Assembly (NCBI RefSeq): GCF_964204645.1
Contig: NC_134027.1
Location: 7,490,485-7,554,484, forward strand
Length of the DNA: 64,000 nt
From: Tubulanus polymorphus
Taxonomy: Eukaryota > Nemertea > Palaeonemertea > Tubulaniformes > Tubulanidae
Direction of reading: 5' to 3'
Each line of letters begins with the position of its first letter. The first letter of the stretch is position 1. The notes under the pieces were generated by a model. That model searched no databases and was not told where the DNA came from. It worked only from the letters and a program-made list of their open reading frames with translations. The position numbers and the translations under genes are program-made. This document shows, piece by piece, positions 15,674-51,773 of the stretch.

Positions 15674-15705
<32 letters not shown>

Positions 15706-18700
15706 ACAACAACCACCGCAACCTGCAGGATTTATGAAGCAACCGGTTCAAACTGTGAGTAGCTAACATTCGTGAGATCCTATCATTTTCAGTGAAGAAA
15801 ATTTTCAATACATAATAGAATGCGCTATTGTTTAATCTTGTCCATTCTATTTGCGGTTATCATGTATTTTTAGACCCACAGCGCAACTGATGAAATTACG
15901 CAGATTTATGATAAACTCGTGCGTGAAATTGAACAGAATATCCAGGCTATAATGCCTAATAATATGCTGACTAGTTACGCAATTATGTCATCACCACTGG
16001 CTGCTCTGCTAGAGGCTGTAATGTTGGCTAGGACATCTCGAGAGATTGTTACTGCTTTATCTTTGCTCCAGAAGGTGAGATATAATTCCGCAAATATCTT
16101 CAAAATCATGAGTTTTAATAATGGCTTCTTTATAGCGCTCCAGTGAAGGCGTAATTATCAGGACTAAACTTAAAGAAGTTTTTCATACACCAGTATTCAA
16201 TTATTTTCATTTTGTTTTAGGCTGTTGAAGGTCTGTTAGATGGCATCACATCTATAAATCTGGAACATGAAAGTGTTATCAGATACAAAGATTGTCATCT
16301 GCTCGTGCTGAAGGGACTTCAAGACCCACGTGCATACGGTCCACAATGGACTAACAAACAAGTCACCAGGTACAGTATTCTCTCCCTTAGACAAATCAAA
16401 TATCAAAGTCATTGCGAGTAAATGATTCACTAAATGTTTTGCATATTCAGATGTTTGATCGACTGTCGAGAAGACTATCGTTATAATGTTGAAGCTGTTG
16501 AGATATTAATCAGACATCACCTAGTAAACATGCAACAATATGATTTACACCTTGCGCAGGTAATTCTTATTCCTAAACTTAGTCCTATAAAACTGTTCTA
16601 TAAATGATGTGTTAGAAATTTCTGTACAGAGTACCTCTATTTCTCTCTTCGTTCTAGTCAATGGACAATGGTTTGAGTTACGTGCCTGTTGCGTTTGCGA
16701 TGGAGCTTGTAAAACGATTTTGCGTTGAAGAAAAGCATGGTACCCAAATTAACGAGGTAAAATATATGTATGCAAATGGAAAATCTGGTACGTGCATTTC
16801 AGGGGTTATACGTATGATTTGTATGAATTTTTTTGTATGTATTTCCAGGCTGATATGTACAATACAATTGAAACATTAGCACGGATAGCGCTTCATTCTA
16901 GACAAGCTCCTGATGGGTGAGTCTTCAATCCTTTCATTATTTCTAGCGAAAGTTATCTATGAAATTGTTGATCAACGTTTGAAATATTGTTTTAACAGTT
17001 TGACAGCTTTGATTGAGACTATCCGACAGCACAATGACGGAGGCCTGTTGGACTCACGCACTCAGACTGGCCCGACTGGTCCCGCTTCAATGATGCATTC
17101 TGGTATCTCCCAAGCTCGTGAATTCGACGATCCACCGGGTCTGCACGAAAAAACTGAATTCCTACTTAGAGAATGGGTGAACATGTATCACTCTGCTGCC
17201 GCTGGTAGAGACAGTACAAAAGCATTCTCGGCATTTGTTGGACAGGTAGGCGTTAATATTTTCACCAGCTGCTTGGTATTATTAAAATCCCGGGTCCGGT
17301 TTATAGACTGGTATTGACTTTCGCCCAGGGCTAAACCCAATTCATTTTCAATTGAGTTAACCCCCGGGTTAAAGTTGGTACCGGTCTATAAAACTGGCCT
17401 CTGGCTAATGGATAATATCCTCTGAATGGCAATGATTACTGAAAGCAGTGTCTCGGAAGTCGCATACATAGCTGGTTCAAAAACAGGTAAATTTATATCT
17501 TTGATTATCATGTTTTCACAGATGCATCAACAGGGAATATTGAAAACTGATGATTTGATTACGAGATTTTTCCGATTATCGACCGAAATGTGCGTAGATC
17601 TGTGTTACCGAGCGCTCGGAGAACAACAGCACAACCCGACATTGACTCGTGCCAAGTGTTTCCATACGCTCGATGCATTCGTGCGACTTATAGCTCTATT
17701 AGTGAAACATTCAGGAGACACGGCTAATACCGTCACAAAGATTAACCTATTGAATAAGGTGAGATGAAGGAACTTCTCTTCGAGACCCACGCAAATCTAT
17801 ATGAATTAAATGATTAATCTTTGATATCTCCATTTGTTGTAGGTGCTGGGAATTGTTGCTGGAGTTTTGCTTCAGGATCACGAAGTGCGTAACACCGAAT
17901 TTCAACAGTTGCCATATCATCGGATATTCATCATGCTATTTATCGAGCTAAATGCACCGGAGCATGTTCTAGAAAGCATTAACTTCCAGGTGCTTACTGC
18001 CTTCTGGTGAGTATTTGATGCGCAAGAAACTTATAAATGTTATTCAGATCTCTAATATCCATTTCACACGTGTAATGCTCTCTTATTGATTTGGTTTTGG
18101 TTTATTTCAGCAACACACTGCATATTTTGCGACCAGCTAAAGCACCCGGCTTTGCATACGCCTGGCTGGAGTTGGTTTCCCATCGAGTCTTCATTGGTAG
18201 AATGCTGGCCATCACTCCACAACAACGGGTAAAGATCCATTCCCTGCTTCTCCGCTTTCCCTCTGAAACCTATTCTGGCCGATATGTGGTTGTATAATTC
18301 GATTCATTTTAATTTCCAGGGTTGGGGAATGTACGCTCAACTGTTGATCGATTTGTTCAAGTTTTTGGCTCCGTTCTTAAGAAACGCCGACCTCACAAAA
18401 CCAACTCAACTACTATACAGGGTAATGACAAAATATTTAGTTTGAACATCTTGTAGGAATTTGCAATATTTTTTAGGGGATTTTCACCTGCTATTCTATT
18501 AAAATGCTGTCTGTGTGATTATTTCAGGGCACTCTACGAGTATTACTCGTCTTGTTGCACGATTTCCCGGAGTTTCTCTGCGATTATCATTACGCGTTCT
18601 GCGACGTCATCCCGCCAAATTGTATACAGATGCGAAACTTGATCCTCAGCGCTTTCCCGCGAAACATGCGTCTGCCCGATCCGTTCACGCCGAATCTCAA

Positions 18701-20141
18701 AGTCGACATGTTGACAGAAATCGCTCAAGCTCCACGTATTCTGACGAACTATGTGAACTTGATTCAACCGGTTACGTTTAAGAAGGTATGCTTTCATAGT
18801 TGAACGAACTGTTTCTTGTCTTAATGAATGTTCAATTGTTGAACGGGAATTAATGTCAATTACAGGATTTGGATTCGTATTTGAAGACGAGATCTCCAGT
18901 TACATTCTTATCAGATCTCAGAAGTAACTTACAGGTTAGTTTTAACGCGATAGAATGCAGAAAATTTTTCATCGACAGGGTGAGCCTAAGGTTAACGGTC
19001 GATATAACTCTTGATATCCATCAATTTTCTCGCAGGTTGGAAGTGAACCGGGTAATCGTTATAATATCGCGTTGATTAACGCATTAGTGTTGTACGTCGG
19101 AACGCAGGCGATAACCTACATTAACAGTAAAGGGTTAACACCGAGTATGAGCACGATCGCTCACTCTTCGCACATGGATATCTTCCAGAATTTAGCTGTG
19201 GATCTCGATACTGAAGGTAAGGAGAGGGAGGAGGGAGCGAAAAGAATATTGAGGGAATGATTCGTTTCGTTTATGTACATTTCATGCGGATATTATTTCC
19301 CTTTCGTCAACTTAAACGATAATCATTTTCCGTGTTTGATTTTCAGGTCGTTATTTGTTCCTGAACGCTGTAGCGAATCAGCTACGCTATCCGAACAGTC
19401 ATACGCATTACTTCAGTTGTACATTATTGTATCTATTCGTTGAAGCTAATACTGAGGCTATACAAGAACAGGTGACCAGGTAAGCTATTCAATACGTCAT
19501 TCCTGCCATCTCCAAACTTGTTTCGCCGATTCAGCTCAATAAATCAACATTCATGTATACTGTATTTCAGGGTATTGTTGGAACGTTTGATAGTAAACCG
19601 TCCTCATCCTTGGGGTCTTTTAATCACCTTCATCGAACTCATCAAAAATCCTCAGTTTAAGTTCTGGAATCATGAATTTGTACACTGTGCACCAGAAATA
19701 GAAACGTAAGTAGACCCATCGAACTAAAGTCTTAGTGATACAGTAAAGCATGTTTAAGTCAGATCTTTTTTGCAATAGGGAATATTGTGTGAAAATCTGA
19801 GGACTAACTTAACCTTAGAAGTATAGTAAATGGTCCAAAGAATTTATATGACTTGCTGATATGCATTGATTTGGCTTAAAAAATCCTACCTAAGTAGGTT
19901 TGAATGTAATAGTGCATAAAATATGAATAAGATTTAAAAACGTACCGCTATCTTAATATTTATATTTCGGGCAATATTGTTGAAATGAGTGGTATGAATA
20001 TTAGATACTGTATATAGAATCTATAGTTATTTCTATTTTCATTGATTTTGTAGATTGTTCGAATCGGTCGCGAGGTCTTGTATGCAGCCAAAAGCTAAAA
20101 GTTTAACAACTCGTGAAAATGAAACTGTTGAAGCTCATTGA
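4573..20141 (+). CDS. CNOT1: CCR4-NOT transcription complex subunit 1 (CNOT1 / NOT1), 46 coding exons
   Basis: This is the central scaffold of the CCR4-NOT deadenylase complex, acting in cytoplasmic mRNA decay and translational repression. I read 46 coding exons totalling 7413 nt (2470 aa; human about 2376). They run from 4573-4674 ([15 protein letters not shown]), 5759-5866, 5976-6074 and 6366-6546 onward to 19347-19479, 19571-19705 and 20054-20141. In order: an N-terminal HEAT-like region (exons 1-16); a disordered N/S/G/Q-rich linker (10201-10660); the tristetraprolin-binding-type helical domain (11069-11938; [35 protein letters not shown]); the MIF4G domain that docks CAF1/CNOT7 (12811-14015; [33 protein letters not shown]); the DUF3819/CN9BD region (14556-15419; [19 protein letters not shown]); a connector; and the C-terminal NOT1 superfamily domain (about 17843-20141) that binds CNOT2/3. 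Odd points are a long polyQ at 15663-15713, a Thr/Ser run at 11836-11905 and one GC-AG intron after 8217. Some minor exon edges are by-eye calls, but phase is consistent throughout. Confidence 0.97.
5027..5226. mobile_element. Possible 200-bp foldback element in CNOT1 intron 1
   Basis: The left end reads CAGGGCGAACTTAG. The right end is the inverted complement of CAGGGTGAACTTCAG, giving imperfect terminal repeats of about 15 bp. The interior contains several TCGACTATAGTCGA-like short palindromes. No clear target-site duplication is visible, so this is a weak call. Confidence 0.4.
10201..10660 (+). other. CNOT1: CNOT1 exon 17: disordered N/S/G/Q-rich linker
   Basis: This exon encodes about 153 residues rich in Asn, Ser, Gly, Met and Gln. 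It begins [14 protein letters not shown] and contains [11 protein letters not shown] and a final QQQQQQ run. It corresponds to the poorly conserved linker between the HEAT region and the TTP-binding domain in other animals. Low sequence conservation is expected here. Confidence 0.8.
15663..15713 (+). repeat. CNOT1: CAG/CAA repeat encoding polyglutamine in CNOT1 exon 30
   Basis: A mixed CAA/CAG tract encodes about 17 consecutive Gln followed by PPQPAGF. It lies just after the conserved [14 protein letters not shown] segment. Human CNOT1 does not have this run at this position. The interrupted CAA/CAG codons are typical of a moderately stable repeat. Confidence 0.85.
17290..17402. mobile_element. 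Foldback (MITE-like) hairpin in CNOT1 intron 36, same family as 2834-2911
   Basis: The left arm reads GGTCCGGTTTATAGACTGG and the right arm reads CCGGTCTATAAAACTGGCC, with inner GGGTTAA/TTAACCC pairs. The arms and the central GGTTAA motifs match the element in NRF1 intron 8. It is non-coding and sits entirely inside the intron. Confidence 0.7.
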
Positions 20142-23740: not shown

Positions 23741-26700
23741 TTATGCAGCTTTTTTGGGTAATTTTTCTATTATCTTATAATCGAGCAGTATCGAGTATTT
23801 TTCGTTGCGTGAATATTTAAACTTCGCGATCAATGCCATTGCAACATTTGCCACATCACCAGTGTAAATCATTCCCTCCCATAAATCTGTCGTTTCGGTT
23901 TCGCGTAGTTTTTGTTTTCCGGTCTTGCCGACGACAACTGCAACATCTTTCGCATCGGGAATTTCGACGGAAAATTTCAAATGTTTGTTCACTTCTAAAT
24001 CGCCGTCCATCGGTTCGTGCAGGTGACACCCGATCCAGCTGCGAGTCGGGCGAGGAAACGGCACAGAATCTGACACGGACGACTCGCATTCAATCAAAAA
24101 CCGAAGCACACAGTCTAACTTTGCCGTGCTCGTTTTCGCTTCAGCGGCGAAAATCGACAGCACGTAATAACCGGCTTTCGGACATCGCGCAATGAATGAC
24201 TTATTGCCTTTGTACGAGAAGAACACGTATTTGTCGTAGTCCCCGAGACAATTCCCACGTCGATCGAAAAGTTTCATTTGATGCGATAATTTAGCGTCTT
24301 TATGAAGCCAGAAAGTGAACGGTATTTCTTTCTGCCACGTGAGCAAAACATGCGGATCCTGACTGGCCGGTATATCCATTCCGACTCGCTCCATCATCGG
24401 CATCTTCCCGATGACTCCGATGTTCGGGAAGATTCCATTAATGCCGGCTTCGTAGCAATCATCCCCGGCAATGATTTGAAAGGCGCACGCGTGCTCCAAG
24501 GATGTCGATTTCCAATCATCGGCGACATAAATATTAAAATAGAATCGTCCGATATCCGGTGGCGCCACAACGAAAACGACAAAATCATCGATGACTTTAA
24601 TCAAGCAATGTCCGTCACCTAAACTGATGAGTCCGTTATCGCGAATTAAATCCAGCGTACAATGCAACCCGACATATTTCGATATTCTCAAACGAATCTC
24701 AACTCGTCCGTCTTGTGTGAACAGTTTCTCCTCCAAACGACGCGTGAATGGCTTCAAACCGGAATTGAAAAACGGCGATTTCAAAACGGGCATTCGCCGG
24801 AACTGACTGACTTTGATCGGATTACGAAGCAGCTGCCATTTGTGATCGTCCGGGTAATGTTGGAATATATGATCCTCGGGATCCGTGCAGAAGTAGAACT
24901 CGTCGCATTTGTATTTCATTCGTTTACGATCGGCTTCAAATTCGTCTTTACCCTCGACTCGTCGCGCGCCCCAGTTACAATTCACAAATCTCCACTGGTT
25001 GTTGATACTGACGGCAGTCCACGTGTTTCGGAAGCACGCCTGTTCGATGTTCATCCCCGGTCGATAGCCGACACCCTTCGAATAACCTTTGATCACGTGA
25101 CAGTGTAGACCAGCATATCTAAAACAGAAACGTTAGATCGATCAATTAATCATTTAATAAGCGAAACGGATAATACTTTATAGGTTAACTTGAAGCTACT
25201 ATACATTAGTAGTGAAAGCTTGGACTTCAAACAAACAAGTTAACCTATTAAGTACCATCCTTGTCATTTTGCTCATTCTTCACCAGATTAACAAAGCTCC
25301 TCTACGAATCTAATAGTCGCCCTATCAATGATAATTTCAATCAACTTACCCGCAAAGTCTCTTGAATAGCTCATGGTAACTTTCCGTTCCATTCTTGATA
25401 CCTTTCAACATGCCTAATAATGAATTCTTGTTGTACTCTCCATCGAGATCAATACGATTCAAATCCTTTACAGTGATCCAACGGAACAAAGCTCTACAAA
25501 ATAATTCAATCAATCATATTCGTTTTCAATCAACCTGATAATATCGATGATAATATACGCAGTACTCACCTTGCTTTCTCGAGGTCATCCTTACAATTTC
25601 GTGTTAAATCTCTTACGAGTTCACCATATGTCTTCTGTTCTAGTTGTGCAACCTGGAAAAGAAAGACGATACCGATGAAAACCTAATTATCAGAATGATT
25701 GAAGAGGAACTATTTTGAGTCCAGTCTGAAACAAAAAACTGTGCTATTCATCCAGATCTATGATGATAAAACCACGATTCATACCTCAATAACTTTTGTA
25801 TCAAGTTCTTCAAACACATCTGCACTGACGTACAGTACGGATCGACGATTCTGAGGAGGTTTAATCTCAGGCTCTGGTTCTTTGAGTTCAAACGATTTCT
25901 CGGATTCTGTTTCTGGTAAATCATCCGTTTGAACTTCAATCGATTCCCGACGAGCCTCTAACAGAGTAGCCGTAGTCTGAGACTGACAATCTCTTAATGG
26001 CTGCTGCTGCTGTTGCTGCTGATGATGTATTTCATTTGTATTTCCGTGAAGTTCTCGATCCTGAAATGTTACAGTTCTAACTGTTCAACTGTTACAGTTT
26101 CAATTCATTCACTATATGGATTGAGGGTAAATATAAGTGTATGTACAATAAACGCACAATGTATGACAGTAGTCAGGGTAGCATTCAATAACTACCATGG
26201 CCATCGTAGAAGCATTTCTAAGTTATTTCATAAAGTAATAACAAGGATGTATCTCATACCTTCTGAGCGATAAGACTTAATATTTCTTCATCAGTCATCA
26301 GTATTTTAGACATGCGCTTGCCTTCATCTGCCATCATTTTCTTCATAAGAGCTCGGATTTTGACGCGTTTCTGTAATTCGAAATACAATTCAATTTTCTT
26401 CTCAAGCAGATGAAGACCGCCTTCATCTAGATCTAAACTTTCCGTTGACTGGGTAAGATCGTCATCGTCATCATCATCCTCATCGCCAGATAATCCGAGA
26501 GCTTCTCTCGCTGCTCGTTTCTCCGCACGCTCTTTCTGCCTTTTCTCGAGGGCCTCGATTCTACGTATTTTTGCTTCGAGAGCCGTCTCCTCGAGTAACA
26601 TCTGAAATATGTGATGTCTTCGTGTGTCTCGTTCGCTGAGTACATCATCAAAACTAATATTGATATCATTAAAGGCGCTTTCGTCAAACACCTCATCTGC

Positions 26701-29700
26701 ATCATCAACTGCACTGTCCCAGGTGATAGAAAAATCACCCTCGTAATTCTCTCCATTTGTACGTGGAATAGCAGAGAGATCATGGTCTCCTGACTCTCCT
26801 TGAAATTCCAATTCGTTTTGCAATTTATCTAAATCTTCATAACTCGGTTCAGGGCGCATTGTTTTACTGGTTTTTTGTGTTTTATCAACAGTCGCATAAA
26901 TTGCGTCATCATCAGATAAATCGCTACCCGCACTATCCGATGTTGCATCGCCAAGGATTTTACCAGTTTTATCCTTCTTCGATTTGATTTTCTGACTGAA
27001 GAACATCGCACTCAACATATCCGACGTATTTTGTACTCCAGATTCATTTGTCTCCTGATGAACTAATGTTTCATCAGTGGATTTTTCCAAGGATTGAACT
27101 TTCGCTGGAGTCATTGTTGATGAACTATTTTTTACCTCATCGTTCCCATCAAGTATTGCTGTCTCATAAGTCATCAGTTCAGACTTCAGAGTAACTTTTG
27201 GAGTTGAAGTCAAAGCTGCATTCAATGTACCATTCTTTTCGCTCTGCTCTTTATTTCTAATCGTACTAGCTCTTGTATCTGTAGATTTACCATCTATTTG
27301 TCTCTCTAAACTTGTTTCTCTTGACCTCTGTTTTTTTGCATCTAGTTGCCTTTCCAAACTATGTTCTCTAGATTTAGGTTTTGCGAATTTTGTGTCTTCC
27401 AGTTGCCTTTCTAGACTATTTTCTCGCGATCTTTGCTTGGCTACGCTGATGTTCTCCTCAATCAATGATGTAATGAAGGCCTTCTCACGTTCATAATCAG
27501 CATTACTTCGATTGATTTCTCGTGAAGGTTCGATTCGTGGTTCTTCATATTTATAACGACTTTTACCTCTCGATTGTCGCTGAGATGTGTTTCGGTGATC
27601 CGCTATAAAAAATGACTTTGAATGTTTCATGTCTTGAATCGCTTTCTCATCAGGTTCAATGTAATCTTTTTTCTTAGGTTTCATCCCAAAAAATTGACGC
27701 AGGGTCACTTTACTACTCTTCTTCATCTTCTTTTGCTCACTTGGAGAGCTTCCAAACGCTTGCATCAATTTGACTTTTTCAGGTGATGGCTGACGGTGTT
27801 TTGCTGTTACTTTTTGTTGAACAAGGCCCTGTACAATGGAAGCAGTATCTGAACCACTTATACTCGCATTACTTTGAGAGCGAGTGCTTTTATATCTGGT
27901 ATCCTGATCTAAGGCAGAATTTTCCATCAGGCGTGCATGTATCAGATTATCGCGAGTTAATGGTGCTGTAAATGATCCATCATTTGGTGGAATTTGTTGT
28001 TGAGGTATTCTGCCACGATCAGGAGGTGTTTCACCCCATTCTGACGTATCTATTGAAGTGACAGTTGGGCTCACAAATGTCATTTCTGACTCATAGCCTT
28101 CACTGTAAGGAGTAACAGGAGCATTTGTTGACATATCACCAATAGTTTGAGTGGTATCAGAAATTTCAATACTATTTGGAGGCTGTAAAATAGTACCAGT
28201 TTCAGTACGATGCTGTACTTCATCATTTTCAAATTTTGTCTCATGATGTTGAACTACTTCATCATAAGTTATTTGTTTTGGGTCACTATCAGATACAGTA
28301 TCCTTTTCAGGTATACCAGTTTGCTCATCCACCATTTCTTTTTCACTGATTTCGTCAACTTGTAGATTGAGTATCTGGTCTGCAGCTAAGTTTAATGTCT
28401 GGCCATCTTTAAGCTCAACGGTATGTTCATCCTTAAGACTATGGATGTTCACAGTTTGACCATCAGGAAACTGAACAGCAGGAATATGAACTACCCGAGA
28501 TACAATGCTTGCATTTCCATCAGAGAAGGTCACCGATTTAATATCATGTGTACTGGTAACAATCACATCCTCACCAGTTGACAACTGCCGATTTTCGGTT
28601 TGTCCAGTAATTGTTACAGTTCTTCCACTTGGAAATGTCATTTTTCTTCCCTCATTTGTTTCACAAATAGTTACAATACGCCCATCTGATAGAGTGAGAG
28701 TTTGCCCTTCAAATCTACCAGTAACTGGTGCCACCTGTCCATTTTCAAAGATGATCTCTGTTGGTACTTTGACCTTTGAATCATTCACAGCTACAACTCT
28801 ACCATCCGCTAGCTTAAATGCTTTCAGTGAATTACCTTCTTTAATTAGAAATGCTTCACCATTTTGAGTTATAACAGATTTTCCCTGCGGAGTATTAGTG
28901 AGAGTAACTGATTTGCCATCAATAAGGTTTAACTTCTGGCCCCCTGTTCCCGCAAATGAGATGACCTGACCATCAGAGAGAGTCATTGTGATTCCATCAG
29001 ATTTACAAACATGCATTCGTTTACCATCAGGATAAGCAATCATTTTCTTATCAGCAGTATGAGAAACATTAACAATCTGACCATTAGACAGTGTCTTTGT
29101 ATCCGTTGATCCAGTTACTGTAATCATCTGCCCATCAGGAAAGTTAACAGTTTTTTCTGACAATGCAGAGACAGCTCTTACTTTCCGACCACTTGCAAGA
29201 ACTAACTTATCCCCCTGTATAGCAGTTAGCCCAACTTCTTGTCCATCTGGGAATACTAAAATACGACCTTCTTCAGTTAGAGAAACTTGGACTCTGCGAC
29301 CATCAGAAAGTTTGAAAGATTGTATATTCTCAACAATTGTAACTAATCGACCATCTTCAAGTTTAGCAATCTCTTTGATTTCTACTACATTGCTCACTTC
29401 ACCATTTGGATAATTGACAACTTTTCCAGTCATTCCATTCACAACATATGCTTCACTCCCATCTTGATATCTGATGACATCACCTTCTTTAATTTCAGTA
29501 ATTGACGAAACATCACCATTCGGAAATGTCATTGTTTGCACTTGATCAATATTTGTCACTGTTAATGAGGTCTTATCATCTAGAATTACGTCAAATCCTT
29601 CAACCATCATAATTGCTTTATTTTTACCATCAGGAAACATCATGATTTTGTCCCCGTCTTCATCGACTATTACAGTGGCAACTTGTCCATTCGATAAAGT

Positions 29701-32700
29701 CATTATTTCTTTATCAGAGTCAGATACATTCACTGATTGACCATCTGATAAAGTCAGTGTCTTTGATGCCTGTAACACTTCTGTGGAATAACCCTCTGGG
29801 AAAGACATCATTCTTCCTTCTGGTGTACAAGTTATGACAACATCACGACTGTCGATGAGCGTTACCATTTGTCCCTGAGCTGTAGAATCAATTGGAACAA
29901 TTTTTCCATCATGAAATTTCATCATTGCCTGATCAGCTGTTTTCGTTACAACAACCTCCTTGCCATCAGATAGATTCATCACATCACCTTCAGTACCAGT
30001 AATTGCTAGAATGCGACCATCCTGAAACGTCATAGTTTGTACACCATAACTAACAGAATCAGTTCCTTGTATTCTCCTGCCATCTACAAGTCCATATGTC
30101 TGCCCTACATTACTCGTTATTGTGACTGCCTGACCATCAGAAAATGTCATCACTTTTCTGCCTCGATTATTTCTCGTAATAGTCACGACTTGTCCATCAG
30201 CGAGTGTCATTGTCTGTCCTTCTGTTTCAGCAATTGTAACAACCTCCCCATCAAGAAGTTTACGAGTTTGACTGTATCGTACAACGGCAACTTCTCGCCG
30301 ATCAGGAAATGTTAAAACCTTCCCTTTTGGAGTCTCTGACAATGAGCAAACTCTACCATCTGATAATGTAAGGGATCTCCCTTCAACTTTAACAACAGCA
30401 AGAACATTTCCATCAGACAAAGTCAATGTTCGGTTTTCAGGTTCACCCATCATCTTCATCATTTTACGATCAGCTAAGGTAACAGCTTTTATACCAGGAT
30501 TGGTGGTGACTGTTATTACTTCCCCATTAGCGAGAGTCATTATCTTCCCTTCAGCTGTAATTCTGCCCTCAACAGTTTCTCCATTGTCTAAATTCCATTG
30601 ACAAACATCACTTTGTGAAGTTGCAGAGACTACTTGATTATTAGCTAGATGAAATACCTGACCAGTTTGTGACTTTTTAACGGATAATTCGGATCCATCT
30701 TCTAGAATAAATTTCTTTGATTCAGTATCGTTGACGGTGATAGTATTTCCATCTGAAAGCATCAAGACCTGACCATCCACAGATCCAGGAACTTTCACTG
30801 TATTCCCATCCGATAAAACAAGTATTCTACTTTCTAGCTGACCAGATGTAAAAAGCACCATTCCTCCTTCGAGGGATAAGGTCTGACAATCAGCAGGTTC
30901 AGTTATTGTAATCAGGTTTCCATCAGTGAGCTGCAATGTTTTGCCTACATCACTTTTCACCACATTCACCGATGTACCATCAGACAGATTCATATTTGAG
31001 CGACCAGTTTTATTGGCAAGAATAGATATGACATTGCCATCTGAAAGACGTACATTTTCATTGGATGCTTCACAGATCTTTATGAAAGATCCATCGGTGA
31101 GTTTTACAGTTTGATCTTCAATTGGTTCAACAGTCGTCAACACTTCTCCCAGTATCTTTACCTCCAATCTCTGCACAGTACCACCATCAGATTCACTATC
31201 ACTACTAGTATCCATATCAACTATCTCAACTTTGCTAACAGTTCCTGCCGTTTTCACAGTAGTTTTCTCAACTTCAACTGTTTTCATTCCACCCATTTCG
31301 ATGTCTTCCAGTTCACTATTATTTTTAGCAATATCAATCGGTTCTGTTACTTTTTCAACCTGTATTGTTTCACCTGGAGCTAAAGTGATCGTTGCCTCTG
31401 GTTCAGGCACTTTTGCAAACTGTTTTTTGGCTTTGATAAGCTCTTCTAATGCTTTTAACTTCTCTTCTTTTATTTCAATAGCTTTTTTCTTTTCTTCAAT
31501 GCCTTTCATATCTACAACTTCTGCAACACCAGAATCATACTGCCACTGTTCTTTATCCTTAACATTTTGTTGATCAGCCATAAGAACATCATCAATAGAC
31601 GTCTCATGCAACAATATGCCTGGCGTTTGTTGTGAGGACTGTTGACTTGTTTTTCGAGGCACAGGCTTTGGTTTTGGTTTAGGCTTTGGTAGAGGAACTC
31701 GCTGTTTTGGAATTGGTTTCACTGCTGGTTTTGACAGAGGTGTGTCACTGCCAATTGATGTTTCATAAATCATTATTTCTTGTTCTTTTGGTTCATTCTT
31801 GGGCATACTATGAAAATTGGTTTCAGCATCATGAACAACAGGTTCTATCGGCAAGAGCACATCATCAATATTGGTCTCGATTGATTTATTACGTTTCTTA
31901 GCCTGTTGATATTTAGGGATATGAATTTGGTTTGGTTGTTGTGCATTCATCTCTTCAATAACTGGATCATTGGCATCTGCAATTAATTCCGTTTCAACAA
32001 CCATATTTTCAACTCGATTTCCGTCAGCCTGAATAGGTCTAAATGACTGATTCTGCTTGAATGTCTTATTGGACATCATAGTCTTCTCTAAATCATTGTC
32101 TGTATCAATAGTCATCATTTTACTTGTTTGTCCTTTACGGGGAACCATTGGACTGAGACGAGATGGATCAGGATACTGACTAGCATGAGCACCACGTCCA
32201 TGGATCAAAAGATGTCGTTCATGTCTGTGCGGTGGCTCTATGTAAGCAGGTGGACCAAAGCCTGTAGGCTGTTCATTAGCCATTGATGAATCTTTCATCT
32301 GACTGCGACGGCGTTCTAAAGGTGGCTTGTTTACTGCGGAGTCGGGGTTTGCTTTATATCCCATAGTTTCCATGAATAAAGATGTGAATAGTGAATCAGT
32401 GGTACTTTCTCGAGCCGATCGCTTCGACCTTTTATGTGGTGTTGCACCAGTAGACTCGTTAGCTTTTTTCTGGATTATGTTTCTCAAACTGGAGCCATGT
32501 TTTTTATAATCAGCGCGTAATTCCCTAATCATATCTTCCTTCTCTTTACGCATCATAGCTTCGAGAGCCATCAATTTGGGCAAGTCTTCAGCATCGAGCA
32601 TATATAATAGATTATCCTGACCAATGTAATCCTTATCAACCAGTTCCGATAAAGAACCAAATTCAATTGACTGAAAGAAACAATGCATTAAAATTTCACA

Positions 32701-34705
32701 TCCAAATTCAGCTGAGTTGATGATTAATTTCAATATCTTGTGGTTAGACTGAATAATAATTATTCCAAGGACGTTTTGCACTCTTCCAGAAGAGGATTAT
32801 TATATATTTTCTCTTGCCATGTATGGAAGTTTCTGCCAATTCTTTTATCACTGTGACAGCAGAAATCTCCTATTTTCAATAGAATATTCCATCTTCCAGA
32901 GGAGCACAATCTACTGGGTTTAAGCATCAAATTAATGTGTACCGTAGACCAAACAAATTTAAACTTACACCAAATTCCTGCAGGCGAGATTTAATCCTTG
33001 AATTCCGTTTCAATGAACCAGACAAATCTCGTATACCCATATCTTTAACATTTGCAGAGGACAGTCGATCTCCAAGAGTAGTCGGATCATATTCCCATTC
33101 AGGATTCACGTAAGAGTACCGAATCTATAAAAATAGAACCATTGAAAATCCATTCTTCAAATAGGACTTTTAACTCAGTGACAGTGTCATCTGAAAAAAT
33201 TGGATCTTATTGCAGCTACTAGCCACTGATAAAAGAAAACTTGACTGCAGTCTTAATAGCCTTATTCAATTTTGAACAATTTCATTGCTCTCCCTTTAGC
33301 AAAATCATTATCTATTTATGGTCAGGAAAAACCGTATTTTTACTTAATTTTGGGTAGACACTTTTTCACAAGAACATATTTTGACAATTATACCTGCTGT
33401 TCTCTAAAAACAGTTTTATCTTGGACTGAATCACAACTTGGATCATCGTTCTTCATTTTTACTTAACACTGACAATCAACATTTCTACCATATAAATTTA
33501 TTTACCTACAGTGACATCTGGACAAACAATTGCATATATATAATTATTTTTGAAATATTTATCTTGGTGTTTTGTTTCATACTTCGATGGCCTGGCGATC
33601 ACAGGGACCTGTACAGCCAATATTCACATAAACTATAAAAGAAAACTTGACTGCAGTCTTAATAGCCTTATTCAATTTTGAACAATTTCATTGCTCTCCC
33701 TTTAGCAAAATCATTATCTATTTATGGTCAGGAAAAACCGTATTTTTACTTAATTTTGGGTAGACACTTTTTGGAGTTGACATAAACCTATGAAATAACT
33801 TAGACCTTCCTTTCAATCCTAATTCAAGGGGTGCTTATAAAATCATTATGTCCAAGATAGAGCTGTGTGAACATTATTTCACAATACATGTACTCGGACA
33901 TTTTCACAAGGACATATTTTGACAATTATACCTGCTGTTCTCTAAAAACAGTTTTATCTTGGGCTGAATCACAACTTGGATCATCGTTCTTCATTTTTAC
34001 TTAACACTGACAATCAACATTTCTGACATTCTTTCAATTGTTTACACTACGCTACAAATGTGTCGTGCACAGCATATCTCAATTCATTAAGTGGGAGTAG
34101 ATTATTTTCTAGTTCATATTCCTCACACTGGAACTGGTTGGTCTTTGTTATAAATATATTCATAGGCCTATGTCTACGCTAGGCATATATGAGACTTTCC
34201 AAACCAGAAGTCTACGTCGTTTAACAATTGCACCTTTCGACGGTATCAAAGGGCGACTTGATTATAGGCAAATTTTAATTGCAATCTAATTACCCATAAC
34301 AAAGGAGCTACCATACCCAAAAATATAATTAGTCAAAGCCCTTAATGAGATAAAATCTAAAGCCTACAAACAGAGGCTCAAAGTATATAATACCAGGGAA
34401 GTGTGATGAGATCATCACACTTCCCTGATAATACGTAAGGCTATATCTCGAGAAGCTCATTTAGGTAAATAACCAAGGCTACATACCTTGTCGAAAGACC
34501 GGTTCATTTTTCGATGATCAGACTCAGGTGTTTTAGATCGTCTTTTGCTGGCCGAGCTTTCGTCAGTTGAATAAGACCCGCTTTCTCTTAAATCCGTGTT
34601 ACTTAAACTTCTCCTGAGAGCGGATCGCGGCCGGCGTTGAGATCCAGATCGCGTCAATGATGACCCCGATCTGAGCATCGTCTCTGCTATATCCTCTAAA
34701 GACAT
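23741..34705 (-). CDS. Giant KY/hillarin/LTD-1-like transglutaminase-domain protein with a 49-unit repeat array
   Basis: Seven coding exons on the minus strand: 34705-34487, 33124-32969, 32670-26260, 26060-25785, 25652-25570, 25493-25350 and 25118-23741. They total 8667 nt (about 2888 aa). Exon 1 (MSLEDIAETM...) is basic and Ser/Arg-rich. The 6411-nt central exon holds a coiled-coil start, a proline/lysine-rich stretch (PLPKPKPKPKPVP), the repeat array (28387-31107), three SRE.SLERQ motifs, an acidic tract, and C-terminal helices (EAKIRRIEALEKRQKERAE). The last four exons form the KY-type transglutaminase-like domain (RALFRWITVKD, VIKGYSKGVGYRPG, WRFVNCNWGARR, DPEDHIFQHYPDD) and the C-terminal Ig-like KY repeats. 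Related proteins (Drosophila hillarin, C. elegans LTD-1, vertebrate KY) act at the actin cytoskeleton, septins or Z-discs. The catalytic Cys, His and Asp positions appear as Thr, Asn and Asn, so it is probably not an enzyme. Family assignment is secure for the C-terminus; the function of the repeats is unknown. Confidence 0.85.
27290..27440 (-). repeat. Three SRE(N/H/T)SLERQ(L/I) motifs in the giant exon
   Basis: Three closely spaced copies occur: SRENSLERQL, SREHSLERQL and SRETSLERQI. They are separated by basic spacers with K/R-S-R. They resemble repeated phosphorylatable or binding linear motifs in a disordered region. Function is unknown. Confidence 0.8.
28387..31107 (-). repeat. About 49 tandem 'TLSDG..VTI' protein repeats (about 19 aa each)
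   Basis: Reading the minus strand from 31107 to 28387 I count 49 consecutive units. Each has the form (hydrophobic)-T-(L/F)-(S/P)-(D/N)-G-x-x-V-x-(I/V), then 7-10 linker residues often containing EG. Examples are MTLADGQVVTI, MTFSDGQAVTI, VNYPNGEVSNV, LVFPDGQEVGL and VNFPDGQMITV. Units have diverged in codons as well as residues, so the array is old and not a recent DNA-level expansion. Alternating hydrophobic residues flanking an Asx-Gly turn predict paired beta-strands. Several units (FPDG, YPNG) closely resemble the G-box/TCP10 repeats of CPAP and STIL partners, which form a single-layer beta-sheet. It is entirely contained in one exon. Confidence 0.9.
33230..34024. repeat. Local segmental duplication inside the KY-like gene's first intron
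   Basis: Bases 33230-33365 are repeated almost exactly at 33636-33771, and 33362-33486 are repeated at 33901-34024 with only scattered substitutions. About 130 bp (33772-33900) separates the two halves of the second copy. A neighbouring 150-bp block (33487-33636) recurs at 36038-36187, directly upstream of P4HA. High identity indicates a recent duplication. It is non-coding as far as can be seen. Confidence 0.85.
34394..34428. repeat. Near-perfect palindrome CAGGGAAGTGTGATGA, shared with 48166-48203
   Basis: Arms of about 16 bp (CAGGGAAGTGTGATGA and TCATCACACTTCCCTG) flank a 2-3 bp centre. The same palindrome, with one arm mismatch and a 5-6 bp centre, occurs at 48166-48203. Two copies 14 kb apart imply a dispersed short foldback element. 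Confidence 0.8.
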
Positions 34706-35368: not shown

Positions 35369-36034
35369 CCGAGTTTATTAATAATTAGCCTATAACAAAC
35401 CCCAACCAATATTCGTTGATCAGTGACAAGGGAAAGGGCGGGACGAAAATTCATGGACCGTCCCTGCTTGATCAACATTCAAAAATCTAGACTACATTGC
35501 CCCTAGGACAATAACAAATTGTATCAATATTCTTTAAATCCAAAACTCACATCGACTTAATTGTTTAATCTATCCATTTGTTCGGGACGCTGCAGTTTTG
35601 CTCATCTCATGTGTCAAAACTACAACTCTATCAAGTGGCAGCCATTTTGAAATGTGGCTGTAGATATTCGATGTTGTCGGTCAAAGCAGATCAAATCCAA
35701 ATTCAAATTTTATTTCGAAAAATAAATCGAAGTAAGAAATGATCCAATGTGATCGAATGTGAATTGAATCAGAATTTTATGACGTATAGAAACAGTTGTA
35801 TTTATTTGATTGAAAATGAATATAATTCAATTCAATTCTTTCTTTATCGCCACTTAGGGAAGGTTTTACAATAAAACATATAAGCATAAAACGCAATAAA
35901 GGTACAGGAAAAAGAAATAAACACTGAAATTCACAGAATAAAATCCACAAGAATTACATGATAAAATTTAAAATAGACAGTATAACATATTTACAGGAGT
36001 TACAGCAGAGGAAAGAACTAGTATGGTTTAAATC

Positions 36035-36187
36035 TCTACCATATAAATTTGTTTACCTACAGTGACATCTGGACAAACAATTGCATATATATAATAATTT
36101 TTGAAATATTTATCTTGGTGTTTTGTTTCATACTTCGATGGCCTGGCGATAACAGGGACCTGTACTGCCAATATTCACATAAACTAT
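36035..36187. repeat. 150-bp repeat immediately upstream of P4HA (copy of 33487-33636)
   Basis: From TCTACCATATAAATTT to CATAAACTAT this block is nearly identical to 33484-33636, with roughly four to five differences. It ends 22-43 bp before the candidate P4HA start codons at 36210 and 36231. It therefore probably contains P4HA promoter or 5' leader sequence, of which the 33.5-kb copy is a duplicate, or the reverse. Confidence 0.85.
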
Positions 36188-36230
36188 AGGCTTACACGGA
36201 TGGTGATAAATGGACATAGGTCTTTTGAAC

Positions 36231-39200
36231 ATGAATTCGCTATTGATTTCGTTGATATTAATAAAATTAGTAAATTCTGAATGTTTTACGGCAGTTTTTC
36301 GAATCAAAGAGGCTCATAATATTGAGAGCAGGATACTGTCTAACGGGCAGCAAGCGGTTGAGATTTTAGAGAACGAATTCCCCGTACTGTATGAAACTCA
36401 CGTTAAAGGGTAAGTTTCGTTGGAGCTAAGAATATTCTTAAACTCTTCTTTTCTCTTTTTTGAATTCATTTTTTCACTAATATTTGACTCCTGTTATTTT
36501 CACACTGGAAAAAAAGAAATGTTTTTTTTCAGGATATTGACGGATGCATTACGTGACCAGCTAGACGTTAGAGTGGCTGAACATCCAACTGGTGCTTACA
36601 AGTTGATAAAACGAATGATTAGATGGCGGAAAGTCCTGTCCATAATAGAAATGATACCTAATCACAAAATTCTCGCAGGTACCGTATGTTTATCTGTATA
36701 GGGCAAGATTTCCATTTCTATAATGAGGCACAATTCTTTGTTCACGAATCACTTTGATATTGTAGATTTTGTAACAGTTGCTAGACAGATGACAAATATC
36801 TCGGTTTGGCCAAATGAGACAGATTTGAAAGGAGCATCGGTTTCGATCTTGCGGCTTCGACAAATGTATAAGTTACGATTAGACGACCTTTCTTTTGGAT
36901 TGGTTAAGAAATTTCGATCAACTGGACTTACACTGGATGATATGTATGAGATTGCGGGATTCGGTTTAGAGCTTACTGACGATGTAATTTATGAGATCGA
37001 TTATTGGCAACCAATTGAATGGCTTTTGTATGTTGAAAAGAACTTCAACACAGAGAATTACATCGAAACGTTCAACCGGGGGAACTTATACTTGAAACTT
37101 GCAATCGCCTTCTTCAAGGTAACCCGACTTTTATTCTTACAGAGATCAGCGTCATCGATCCAATAATTCTCGGTATGCTAGCGCAAATTATTCGATTTAA
37201 GAAGTCAGATATAAAAGCTTTATTATCTCTATTTTAAGTTTGAAGACTACAAAACCGCGTTTGAATACATTATGAAAGCCTGGCAATTTGGTAAGCAATA
37301 TATCTATGATACCGTGGTTATTCTATCATTATTGCGATTTTCCAAAATCAATTTGGTAAGATGCTTACTGATTATTTGTTGGTAAATGATATCCAAAATA
37401 GATCCATTTAATGAACTGGTAAAGGAGTATAAAACAAAGTATGGCGAAGTGTATCAAGCACAATCAGATCTTACATACACCAAACAATACTATCCAGACG
37501 AGATATCGGCTCATTATGCTAAACTTTGTCGCGGAGAGGAGGTTTGTTTCCAGTATGATTGATATATTGGGAAGAATTTATGAAATCTCACGATATAACG
37601 TTACCGAAAATTGCTTTTAGGAGCTAGAAGAGCATCTGAATTGTTTCATCAAGAAGACTTTGATACCATACCGTCCAGCAGATGTAGAAATAGTTCAAGC
37701 CAATCCAGAGATTTACATTTACCATAATGTTATACATCATAAAGAGATTGAACAAGTAAAAGAACGAGTTCGTGAAAAGGTAACTAATGCTTTGCTTGAA
37801 AAAAAAAACGAAGCTGCATCAATGCATTGGCTTTTGATGAATTATGTTATCATTGTTTAATATTGTTATAAGTTGTCATACACTAAACTGCAATTATCGT
37901 CTGCATATCTTTTACAGATGGGTCGTTCATTTATTATTGGACACAACAGAAGTGGTGATGTCATATCCGATGTCCGTTTAAGTAGTTCGTAGGTATACAT
38001 AGGCACCGTCATACCACTTCCAATCAAGAAACGCATTATAACATACAACGACAAACCTCGTGTTTTTAGTGCTTGGTTCGACGAAGGCGACGATTTGGAC
38101 AGGAAACTGTCGAATAGAATTACCATCCTGACGGCACTGAATACCTACCAGAGCTCAGAACCATTTCAGGTATGAAACATACCAGACATAGAACATCATG
38201 GGAAAGAAAATTAGCCGTTTTGAATTGGTATACGTTAAAACATCGTTTTATCATAATTTTGTGTCTATCTAAGTCACTCATTTTGATAATAGGTAGCAAA
38301 CTATGGTCTCGGTGGACATTACTTACCACATACTGACTATTTCGATTATGTAAGTTTCGAATCTAAATCATGATGGTGATGCAATTCACGTAGATATGAA
38401 GATATTTCAACACTAAAATACCCGGATCCTGTTCCGGTTGTGAGTTAAGATTTAACTCAGAGTTAACTCTTTGAAAATGAACTAATTTCAACTCGGAGCT
38501 AACTCTAACTAATAACTGTGGAACCGGATCCCGGTTTCAATGATATCTGATGTTACAGAGATCACTGGAGATAGATAACGAAGGTACAGGATACGAAGGT
38601 GTTGACGATCGTTTGGCCACTTGGATGTTTTATGTGAGTAAGAACATCACGAAAATTGCCGACATAGTTTTTATTTTTTTAGATTTTATAATACATTCAC
38701 ATTCTCGTTTGCATGTCTCGCAGTTGAATGATGTTCCAGAAGGTGGCTTCACAGTGTTTGATAGGTCTCATATACCAGTAGTGAAAGGTAGCGCAGCATT
38801 GTGGTATAACTTACACAAAAACGGTACTCCCGATGAGCGAACCATACATTCTGGGTGTCCGGTGCTTGTCGGCTCTAAATGGGGTAAACTTTCGCCTATC
38901 CTTGGAGTAATCATCTTGACAAGGTGATTACTCCAAGGTCTATCCGATGAATTCTTATCTTTCGTTTATGACCATAGCCTTGTAATGCATTTGTTCTACC
39001 AGTAATCGCGCTGTATTTTGAAAATCTACTGCGTCCTCATCTATGATGTCTAATGGCTAAGAAAGGGACATTGTGGTATTTTTTTCTAGCTGATTCGAGA
39101 CAAGCAGATAAATTTGCATCCTCAAAATACGATGTTTTTGTGCAGCGTAAAGCCTAGCGTACATCGACAAAACGACTGGAGACAACGTACCTATCGAGTG

Positions 39201-42400: not shown

Positions 42401-45400
42401 TTAGGAGTCTGCTCAGATTATTCCCGAGAAAAAGTAATTGATTGGTTTTCGGAGTGATCGGTGACGTAAGAAAAATACATGGGATATGCCCAATAGATCA
42501 GCAGTCCATCGACTAACCACAAGGTCATACCTCGTCATGACTGACCCGTCTTCTTTTTATCACGATTTGGCTGGAAATCGTTTCACAGATTATGCAATTA
42601 TCGGTTAGAAAATTCTATTTGTTTAACGGATGATAGCGTAATAAATGAAAGTCGCATTTGATTACATTTTGTATTAATAATTTACGATATCTTCTACCGC
42701 AGTCCTCGTTTGTGAAGGGTATCGTGACGATGGCAAATATAAATTTGTCCAGGAACGAAATTTCATTTTTCAATTTTATCTACGTTGGGATGGAATCTGC
42801 GACGATGTCATGGCATCGCATTCAAACACAACATCAGATTGTATTGGAAAACCAAATTGGAGGGAGAGATTTCTGAAAGTCTGAACACAGCACAGGAGTC
42901 CAATAAATGGGGAAAATTTAGTTAAATTTGGCCACTTCTACAGTTACATATCGACGGACAAAATAACAATTGAACGCTACACATGAAAGAAAATCTCTGA
43001 GATCAATTAACACACGGGGATATTTTTTTTCTTGATGTCCACATTTCTATATCATATTTTTACTACTGCTGAGTGTGGAATTAAATCCATAACACGCCAG
43101 TTATGAGTTACGGAATTTCTTGTCTGGTATCTGTAAAAAAATTCTTCCAACGTGTAACGTGGCAAACTTTGAAACCCGTTTTGCTCACCATCTACACCTA
43201 CAATATCTTACTGAAGCAATTTTTTATCTCGCATTCCAATGTGGTTCTAATAATATGAAGCAGCGCATTATTTCGAATATGCACCAGCAGCGATAAATTC
43301 GGTTCCTCGGCAAACCGGTGATGATATAACTACCACTTGTTCTGAGAGTCTATCTATCCATCGCGATGAAACCTGTTTTTCGAATATTCCTTGAACATTA
43401 TCAAAGTATGAATTGTGTTTGAATACAATTACCGATTCTGTTCCCGCACTGTTCTTGGTGGCAAAGTCCATAGCACGGATTTGACAAAAATAGGATAAAT
43501 ACATAACTACAGCAGACGTGCGTCAGATATCATTAACCTAAAATTCAAGCGTTTAGGCATTACGAGTCTTTTTGGCCCCTTTTTGATTTTTCTGTTGACC
43601 TGAAGCAATGCTTATCGTGATACGATGTTGGATACGAATATTGAGTTAACATGTGAGGGACGATAGTTTGCAGACGATTTTTGTGGTGGAATCTGCGGCA
43701 TGCCATCCCATTGGCCGAGGATATAACAAAATATTTCTAACGTTTGTAAACATACGTGGATTTACAGACTCATGTTGCCACCGCTTGTGAATTTCATACC
43801 AACGATTCAGATGATACGGTTGCCATGATAACACCTTAATGAGTGGGACGTTTCGCTCAATAGCGATAGTAATATTGAATCAAATGTATTGAATTAAAAA
43901 CTCCTTATATAGACGTAATATATACGTCCATGTAAATAGTAAGTAAAGACATTGTTGTAGACACATTAAATCTCAAGACACGATTCTGTAACAGACACCG
44001 ACCCATGTACGTCCATGGAGAAGTTTCTGCCATCATATCTTCACCCAAATCACCCTCCCGCATCGATTCAAGTCGTGTAAGATGGATGTGTGTATTCGCG
44101 ATAATATTATTCTATGAAAAATTCAAGTGCAAAACCAATAAAATGCATAATGAAGAGTAAGTGGTATAGAATTTGAAAACACCCGTCACGAAAGTCCTTC
44201 CTTGTACGTCGAGTGGAAACTAATGGCAACTTGTTTATTATAGGTGGTTGTTGCAATGTCAACTTGAGTTGTATACGAGTGACATTATTTGTCAAATTTA
44301 CATCACGATTAAACATGCTTTTTAATGCAGTTTTTATATTACAATTATCCGTTTAATGTACAAGATGGAAATGCAGGGCAGAAATAAACTACGTATAATC
44401 ATTATAATCATGAATATGCATGGAATAATTTATTGATTTTTTTCGAACGCAATTATGAACGAGATTGATAGCGGGGAACTTAGACAGTATAGCTTCTGAT
44501 ATGTCCAATATTCAAATGATATGTAGAATTCGAAAAAAAAAGTTGCTAACGGTTCAGAATTTCCTTTAAAGATGGGTTTGAATTTTAAAACTATGTCAAC
44601 TTTGGACCCACGGTTAAGTTGTCACCTTGGTGGTTGGACTTGACAATGGTTCAACTTAAGTTCAATTTCAATTATAAAACTCAGCTGCGTTCACCTACAA
44701 CTAGTCAACTATCGTACTGATTAATCCATTCCATTTAAAAATAAAGATGAGTTAGAACTAATATTTTGGTTGAATAGATGAACAGTATTTACTGTAGATA
44801 TTAAATGCAAATCCGTACACAGCTGTCCGGTTTGAAACAACCATATAACAATGATACAGCTGTGGGCGACATTTTCATTTCTGTATAATATATTATTTCT
44901 ATTCTGCTGATATACAACAACATTTGTTTTCTCAGATTGGGCTAAGTGTGGGTTTTAGCCCTAAAGTACTATTTTGACACCAGTATCCTAAGCTCTGAGT
45001 TTGATCTTATTCTGATACGATGCAAAGGTCTTCATTGTTACAATCTTCCTTAAAAACTATAAAACCTACATTAACCTAACTGAATAGTTATTTATAGGTT
45101 TACAGAGAGAAATTTAGTAAACCTTATTATGGAAATGATTCACCCAACAGTTTCATACGCCAGTTTCGTACTATAGCGATTGCAGTTTCTGAAGGATGTT
45201 ATTTTCTCGCCGTTACATTTTCATATTGAGAAGCGGGTGATGAAGTACTTAAACAGTTATTGGATCCTCGTTTTGCAGCCTCTGCTTCAGGCTTGTGCCG
45301 TCTCCGTGTCGGCGTAATCAGAGTAACCAACTGCAATATCTACTGACACGATATAATCAATAATCGATAGTAATTCAGACGATAATTCATTACCATTTGT

Positions 45401-51209: not shown

Positions 51210-51773
51210 CTCATCACTAAAGCTTGTTCGGTACTGTTTTTTCGTCTGTTCATTCGTAGCTCTTGGCGTAGTCTTATACGTCTGATTTTGTTGTTGAGCA
51301 GCAGAACCGACAGAATTATGATAACTACTGTAGGGATTTGGGGGATAGGTCCTCAAGGAATGGAAACTGTGAGAATTGCCTAACGTTGCGCGTGGAACGT
51401 GTTGTGAACAATATATTTCTCTGTCGACACCGGAACTAAGGAGGAAGTTTTTGAGCGTCAATTTGATTTGACACGTTTTGCAGTTGAAGCATTCTTTATG
51501 ATACAGCAAACGGAATTCAATTCTAACCCTGTCGACGGGATATACGCGGCGTAAACATCGTCGACACGGATCTATCACACTAGCCGGGGGCGTATCACTG
51601 TGTCGTTTTTTAAGGATTGATTTGATGCCTCCTGTGGCGGGGGCACTAGCCACACTGCTGATACTGTCCCCGCGTCGCATCCCAACCGGATCCATGTTAT
51701 TCCGGACAAATTGTTCACGTCTTATCGTGTATACATTGCTCGCACTTTCCCCTCTACGTAAATAAGCCGCCAT
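51210..51773 (-). CDS. LIM-domain exon; probable alternative first coding exon of the KY/hillarin-like gene
   Basis: On the minus strand a start at 51773 (MAAYLRRGESASNVYTIRRE) opens 188 codons ending at a GAG|GTAAGT donor in phase 0. An acceptor-like TTATTCCAG lies directly before this ATG, so an upstream untranslated exon is likely. The centre is one LIM zinc-finger: CRRC, 17-19 residues, HKEC, FNCKTC, about 20 residues, YCSQH. This fits C-x2-C...H-x2-C-x2-C-x2-C...C-x2-H. Before it is KSILKKRHSDTPP; after it is a Ser/Tyr/Gln-rich tail ending YRTSFSDE. Hillarin and LTD-1 combine one N-terminal LIM with the same transglutaminase-like domain found at 23741-26060. The phase-0 end matches the phase-0 start of the IRYSYVNPEWEYD exon at 33124. 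I therefore infer an isoform of about 3003 aa. The alternative is a separate small LIM gene. Confidence 0.75.

Follow-up and report, generated by a model that had tools for sequence, protein, structure and literature searches.

The window analysed here is a stretch of 64,000 nucleotides of Tubulanus polymorphus DNA (NC_134027.1, positions 7,490,485 to 7,554,484). On its minus strand, positions 32796 to 26257 form an open frame of 2180 codons, most of it a single exon that encodes a long run of short protein repeats. The exon belongs to a gene for a hillarin-type protein, which is real, coding and unusual in carrying a very long G-box-like array. Features of the gene are collected in Table 1, with positions counted from the first base of the window.

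Gene model and family membership

Table 1. Exons and repeat array of the predicted gene; all rows except the alternative first exon and the array itself are exons of the seven-exon model
Feature	Position	Strand	Evidence and remarks
First coding exon, ATG and LIM domain	51210..51773	-	Pfam LIM 33.6 bits (cut-off 22.9); donor GAG/GTAAGT, phase 0
Possible alternative first coding exon (MSLEDIAETM...), LIM-less form	34487..34705	-	ATG after acceptor; donor AAG/GTATGT, phase 0
Exon immediately upstream of array exon	32969..33124	-	AG/GT borders, phase 0 both sides
Array exon, 6411 bases (2137 codons)	26260..32670	-	Single open frame; TTTCTTTCAG acceptor, AAG/GTATGA donor, phase 0 both ends
49-unit repeat array	28381..31119	-	Cyclic-profile alignment; Pfam Tcp10_C match
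Exon downstream of array exon, ending ...LYVSADVFEELDTKVIE	25785..26060	-	AG/GT borders, phase 0
KY transglutaminase-like core exon, N-terminal part	25570..25652	-	
KY transglutaminase-like core exon (ALFRWITVKDLN...), catalytic Cys position = Thr	25350..25493	-	
Last exon: remaining transglutaminase-like core (His, Asp positions = Asn), two KY-type Ig-like stretches, stop codon	23741..25118	-	Pfam PF23265

The predicted gene model joins seven exons whose common reading frame stays open for 3003 codons; each intron has GT/AG ends, and additional exons may lie between 51.2 and 33.1 kb. The first-pass annotation had placed the array in a LIM and KY (hillarin/LTD-1-like) gene; the in-frame model bears this out, although the LIM exon falls outside the coordinates given there. 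The LIM domain is the mark of the hillarin/LTD-1 branch, and the predicted joining of its exon to the rest of the gene is in phase. Within the array exon, the stretches flanking the array are of low complexity and, by a simple charge-hydropathy index, probably disordered.

At the C-terminal end, Pfam finds KY-type Ig-like domains in the last exon (PF23265, 115.7 bits against a cut-off of 27) and scores Transglut_core at 20.1 bits in the gene model, below its cut-off of 23. The transglutaminase-like core is 57% identical over 56 aa to KY paralogues, and among solved proteins it matches FAP246 (E 4e-4) and the transglutaminase-like domain protein 9crn. All three residues of the catalytic triad, which not every family member needs to have, are replaced, Cys by Thr (placed by register) and both His and Asp by Asn (from the alignment with 9crn). 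The earlier label ‘transglutaminase-like’ thus stands for the fold and fails for the catalytic triad; with Thr, Asn and Asn at these positions the core should be catalytically dead and the protein not an active enzyme.

Four further KY loci were found elsewhere in the genome. One of these, L024 (C2:23.84 Mb), encodes LIM and KY domains together with coiled-coil-like sequence, and the array is absent from the stretch of it that was read. The array gene shares with L024 the family order of LIM domain, linker, transglutaminase-like core and KY Ig-like domains, and its LIM domain is 37% identical over 63 aa to that of L024. By eye, the end of the exon downstream of the array exon resembles ...IYADPNEVFSELDEHV of this paralogue, in which the triad also appears replaced at all three positions. 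The array gene differs in having 49 hairpin repeats and about 1200 more residues, in one extra-large exon whose place in L024 is taken by the coiled-coil-like sequence.

Anatomy of the repeat array

When the exon translation is aligned to a cyclic profile, residues 560-1472 (numbered along the open frame) divide into exactly 49 consecutive units, the number counted in the first-pass annotation, over a span slightly larger than the 28387-31107 reported there. A plain HMM alone reports 39 stretches in the same region. The array scores 1199 with the cyclic profile, and ten shuffles that preserve composition score -135 +/- 15; as the real units had served to train the profile, this gap is somewhat flattering. 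Elsewhere in the exon the same profile gives -172 and -211.

Unit length is 19 residues in 25 units, 18 in 11, 17 in six, 20 in four, 21 in two and 16 in one, and the consensus reads E-G-[KQ]-T-[MLV]-T-[LF]-[SP]-[DN]-G-[QR]-V-V-T-[VI]-T-E-T-x. At the turn, Gly occupies its column in 44 of the 49 units and Asp or Asn the column before it in as many, while Leu, Phe or Tyr stands ahead of the turn in all units but one (48/49). Hydrophobic residues fill columns 4, 6, 12 and 14 in 96%, 98%, 85% and 98% of units, respectively, and Thr or Ser is found in 38-53% at columns 3, 5, 13 and 15.

Units share 25% identity on average, whether they are near neighbours or far apart. Block duplication was considered and rejected, since identity stays flat with distance; the lone exception is at lag 12 (p 0.004, uncorrected). 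Units with Phe or Tyr seem to alternate with Leu units from unit 15 to 49 (25 switches against 17 expected, p 0.007), weak evidence because the stretch was picked post hoc.

Tandem Repeats Finder reports no tandem repeat in the array DNA, which argues for an old array and against a satellite. The codons of the conserved glycine are GGT (19), GGA (14), GGG (6) and GGC (5), in proportions similar to those in the rest of the exon. Glycine has been kept while its synonymous sites were scrambled over all four codons, pointing to selection on the protein in place of recent duplication; it is the amino-acid pattern of the array, rather than the DNA, that appears to be under selection, in agreement with the earlier proposal. 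A genome-wide search with the array gave no match beyond the array itself, and no relative turned up when prokaryote genomes and viral contigs were scanned.

Relationship to the CPAP G-box

The Pfam family Tcp10_C (PF07202, the G-box repeat of CPAP) matches the array at 59.3 bits, against a cut-off of 36, and matches neither the reversed array nor an array shuffled within units. Profiles were prepared from non-overlapping blocks of the array, with a good-register partition chosen by script, and searched against the PDB. The first profile placed CPAP G-box entries at the top with an E-value of 2.4e-5; the in-register profile again did so, with values of 2.2e-7 to 1.3e-6 and the next entry at 0.02. 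A reversed profile reached 9.2e-5 on Antigen 43, an unrelated protein, so E-values from such repetitive profiles are inflated: the first profile proves little by itself, and only the in-register profile (2.2e-7) stands clear of the noise. Aligned by hhalign with the G-box of the genome's own CPAP, the in-register profile gave a probability of 92% (E 5.6e-7). In the genome, Tcp10_C detects besides the array only the CPAP gene and one weak, stop-containing match.

Such Pfam matches are not unique to the G-box, since DUF6799 also exceeds its cut-off on the array. DUF6799, Surfac_D-trimer, cupin, Rieske_2 and others were rejected as relatives, being single short hairpins from scattered families; DUF6799 had no match in a search of the genome. 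With NCBIfam nothing on the array passed the cut-off, and phmmer with the raw array against the PDB returned nothing useful. We call the repeats G-box-like with fair confidence, as the first-pass annotation had suggested from the look of the units, and common descent of the array and the CPAP G-box is likely rather than certain. That annotation had also taken the array to lie outside the named repeat families of KY-like proteins, which stands in part: a named family, Tcp10_C, does match, and we found no description of it inside KY-like proteins in the open-access literature. The same literature yielded no description of a LIM-KY protein combined with a G-box-like array, which may be annotated elsewhere.

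The G-box of CPAP is the same kind of hairpin repeat, with PDG type I turns and both faces exposed, and its free-standing beta-meander of about 20 strands has been described as structurally unique (PMC3776556); its length is about 9.2 nm (PMC5366329). Like that of CPAP/SAS-4, the array is built of hairpin repeats of about 18-19 residues with (P)DG/NG turns, and a third of its units carry an aromatic residue ahead of the turn. It has 49 repeats where CPAP has about 10, adds a second, looser E-G turn, and forms the middle of a LIM-KY protein, whereas the CPAP G-box is the end of a centriole protein. Its hydrophobic residues appear to lie on one face, whereas both CPAP faces are exposed, and on account of this departure we do not file it as a CPAP-type G-box. 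As regards the one-sided face, the nearest known shape is that of MORN arrays (for example TbMORN1), long twisted antiparallel hairpin sheets that dimerise and are grooved on one side, the groove being lined with aromatic residues (PMC7725318). A MORN unit is 23 residues long, against 19 in the array, and carries GxG and YEGEW motifs; the MORN model PF02493 is not among the Pfam families listed for the array and did not match this locus in the genome search.

Predicted fold and possible role

AlphaFold2 models of eight units (mean pLDDT 65) and of six units in better register (mean pLDDT 77) are built entirely of strands, of which each unit supplies two, and turn at SDG and at E-G. The six-unit model was searched with Foldseek, and CPAP/Sas-4 chains were found at ranks 2, 4, 6, 8, 9, 10 and 14 (E 0.015-0.1, TM about 0.2), alongside designed barrels. 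TM-scores of the models to the G-box are low (0.12-0.22), neither model has a structural match at Foldseek E 0.001 or VIA Z 5 (VIA Z <= 4.1), and both have their best VIA scores against closed small beta folds. If S-D-G forms a type I + G1 turn, columns 4, 6, 12 and 14 would lie on one face of each hairpin; half-repeats of the local CPAP lack such a one-face hydrophobic pattern. Of the single-layer sheet tens of nanometres long that had been proposed, the antiparallel meander is thus supported locally, at moderate model confidence. A flat, long sheet may form but does not follow from the models, which at moderate confidence match both closed small beta folds and the G-box, and one face appears to be hydrophobic, unlike CPAP.

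Our preferred reading, to which we give slightly better than an even chance, is a hillarin/KY-type adaptor with a LIM end, an end made of the dead transglutaminase-like core and KY domains, and 49 G-box-like hairpins between them acting as a long scaffold. Each 19-residue unit would form one hairpin, its two strands joined by the (S/P)(D/N)G turn and followed by a looser E-G turn, and hydrogen bonds between neighbouring hairpins would make one long antiparallel meander. Flanked by its probably disordered linkers, the array would keep the LIM and KY ends apart while offering repeated binding edges, including in units 15-49 edge residues of the form F/Y-(P)-D-G, like the aromatic ladder of CPAP. 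A scaffold or spacer in a cytoskeletal adaptor would be the simplest and most likely role for a long repeat between two such ends. Among the relatives, hillarin acts via septins (PMC3081291), and KY is part of a Z-disc network with filamin C (PMC6078408). A bolder form of this idea, in which G-box repeats were transplanted into a LIM-KY protein and expanded there into one continuous beta-ribbon, polar on one face and hydrophobic on the other, which would be a new spacer or length-setting element of the cytoskeleton, we consider unlikely. Such a ribbon, if continuous and flat, would have about 98 strands and measure about 45 nm, as scaled from the roughly 20 strands in about 9.2 nm of CPAP.

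Against an open ribbon, every hairpin would have a hydrophobic face, for which reason the meander might fold in on itself, as small barrels in a row or as a curved trough of the MORN kind, or two arrays might pair face to face in a dimer. Such a structure would be thicker than the ribbon and not as long, and arguments for a length ruler would fail. We rate this at somewhat less than an even chance: the four columns that are 85-98% hydrophobic would share a face if SDG is a three-residue type I + G1 turn, VIA favours closed small beta folds, Foldseek places designed barrels alongside the G-box, and the grooved, twisted, dimerising MORN arrays have the CPAP G-box as their closest structural match (PMC7725318). 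The free ends of short excerpts may, however, cause curling in models whose confidence is in any case moderate. A two-sided parallel beta-solenoid, in which each unit makes a coil of two strands with its hydrophobic side inward, would also fit the period of 19 and the two strands per unit, but D/N-G turns are typical of hairpins, neither model has a parallel beta-helix among its leading Foldseek matches, and the leading PDB matches of the forward profiles are to the CPAP G-box and not to solenoids; a solenoid is very improbable.

Origin and transcript structure raise separate doubts. A D/N-G hairpin repeat may have arisen and multiplied inside a hillarin paralogue with no descent from the CPAP G-box, a possibility that we take seriously while thinking it rather doubtful. 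The units are short and simple, DUF6799 likewise passes its cut-off, reversed-profile noise reaches 9e-5, and the face pattern and second turn are unlike CPAP; against convergence, the CPAP G-box (Tcp10_C) comes first with two profiles, is matched by hhalign and is absent from the reversed controls. As to transcripts, the ATG exon at 34.7 kb with its phase-0 donor may yield a LIM-less form, and the array protein could start there if the LIM exon belonged to a different transcript. That exon lies 18 kb upstream, with a gene on the plus strand (at about 36.2-38.9 kb, read by eye) between it and the array exon. It is nevertheless on the same strand and in the right order, has a phase-0 donor, and encodes a LIM domain resembling that of the LIM and KY paralogue, so that a separate LIM transcript is improbable.

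The array resembles, at much greater length, a domain that is otherwise known from the centriole protein CPAP. A natural relative of the G-box that sits in a cytoskeletal adaptor and runs to about 98 strands would show that the architecture can be extended several-fold, and ideas on how such sheets stay soluble could be tested on it independently. The hillarin/KY family, which is poorly understood, would also gain a long scaffold; deficiency of KY causes human myopathy (PMC6078408). Should the array prove compact, it would be a curious yet ordinary repeat expansion.

In CPAP the residues F978, Y996 and F1015, one hairpin apart along one edge, hold STIL prolines. Proline-rich ligands for the array are a guess by analogy, and a STIL-type PRxxPxP motif was not found within the array protein itself. 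Sixteen units have Phe or Tyr directly ahead of the D/N-G turn, all of them among units 15-49 and none among units 1-14; three are consecutive (29-31), and in 10 the aromatic residue is followed by proline.

Triad state in the KY paralogues

Read by eye, the state of the Cys-His-Asp triad of the transglutaminase-like core varies among the KY paralogues: L025, a paralogue locus in the same genome, retains His and Asp without Cys, and all three residues are gone from both the LIM- and KY-bearing paralogue L024 and the window gene.

Motifs and frames in the gene, its presumed intron and nearby

Past the array the model protein carries three spaced copies of SRE-x-SLERQL/I (residues 1988-2032), which are probably short linear motifs. 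Near-identical short frames (e.g. SYFDGLAITG...ANIHINYK) lie at three places, and their recurrence suggests an interspersed repeat inside the intron. By-eye reading also gave CNOT1-like exons and, on the strand opposite to the window gene, prolyl 4-hydroxylase alpha subunit-like open frames, including PEGGFTVFDRSHIPVVKGSAALWYNLHKNG; these frames fall in the large intron that presumably separates the LIM exon from the array.

Features by position (window coordinates unless prefixed)
Feature	Position	Strand
SRE-x-SLERQL/I copies	26260-28380	-
Recurrent short frames	33260-33680, 33861-34004, 36022-36280	
Prolyl 4-hydroxylase alpha subunit-like frames	36200-38930	+
CNOT1-like exons	12700-19700	+
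G-box-like short frame	45287-45472	-
Tcp10_C match, same genome	G000:C7:1200242-1200310	

Isolated G-box-like matches

One G-box-like stretch, RILRPDGERELTFTNGNEL, stands in a short open frame in that presumed intron, the sole match in the genome search; it is possibly a chance match or an unused exon. The weak 19.9-bit match to Tcp10_C, the Pfam family of the CPAP G-box repeat, is broken by two stops and is probably due to chance.
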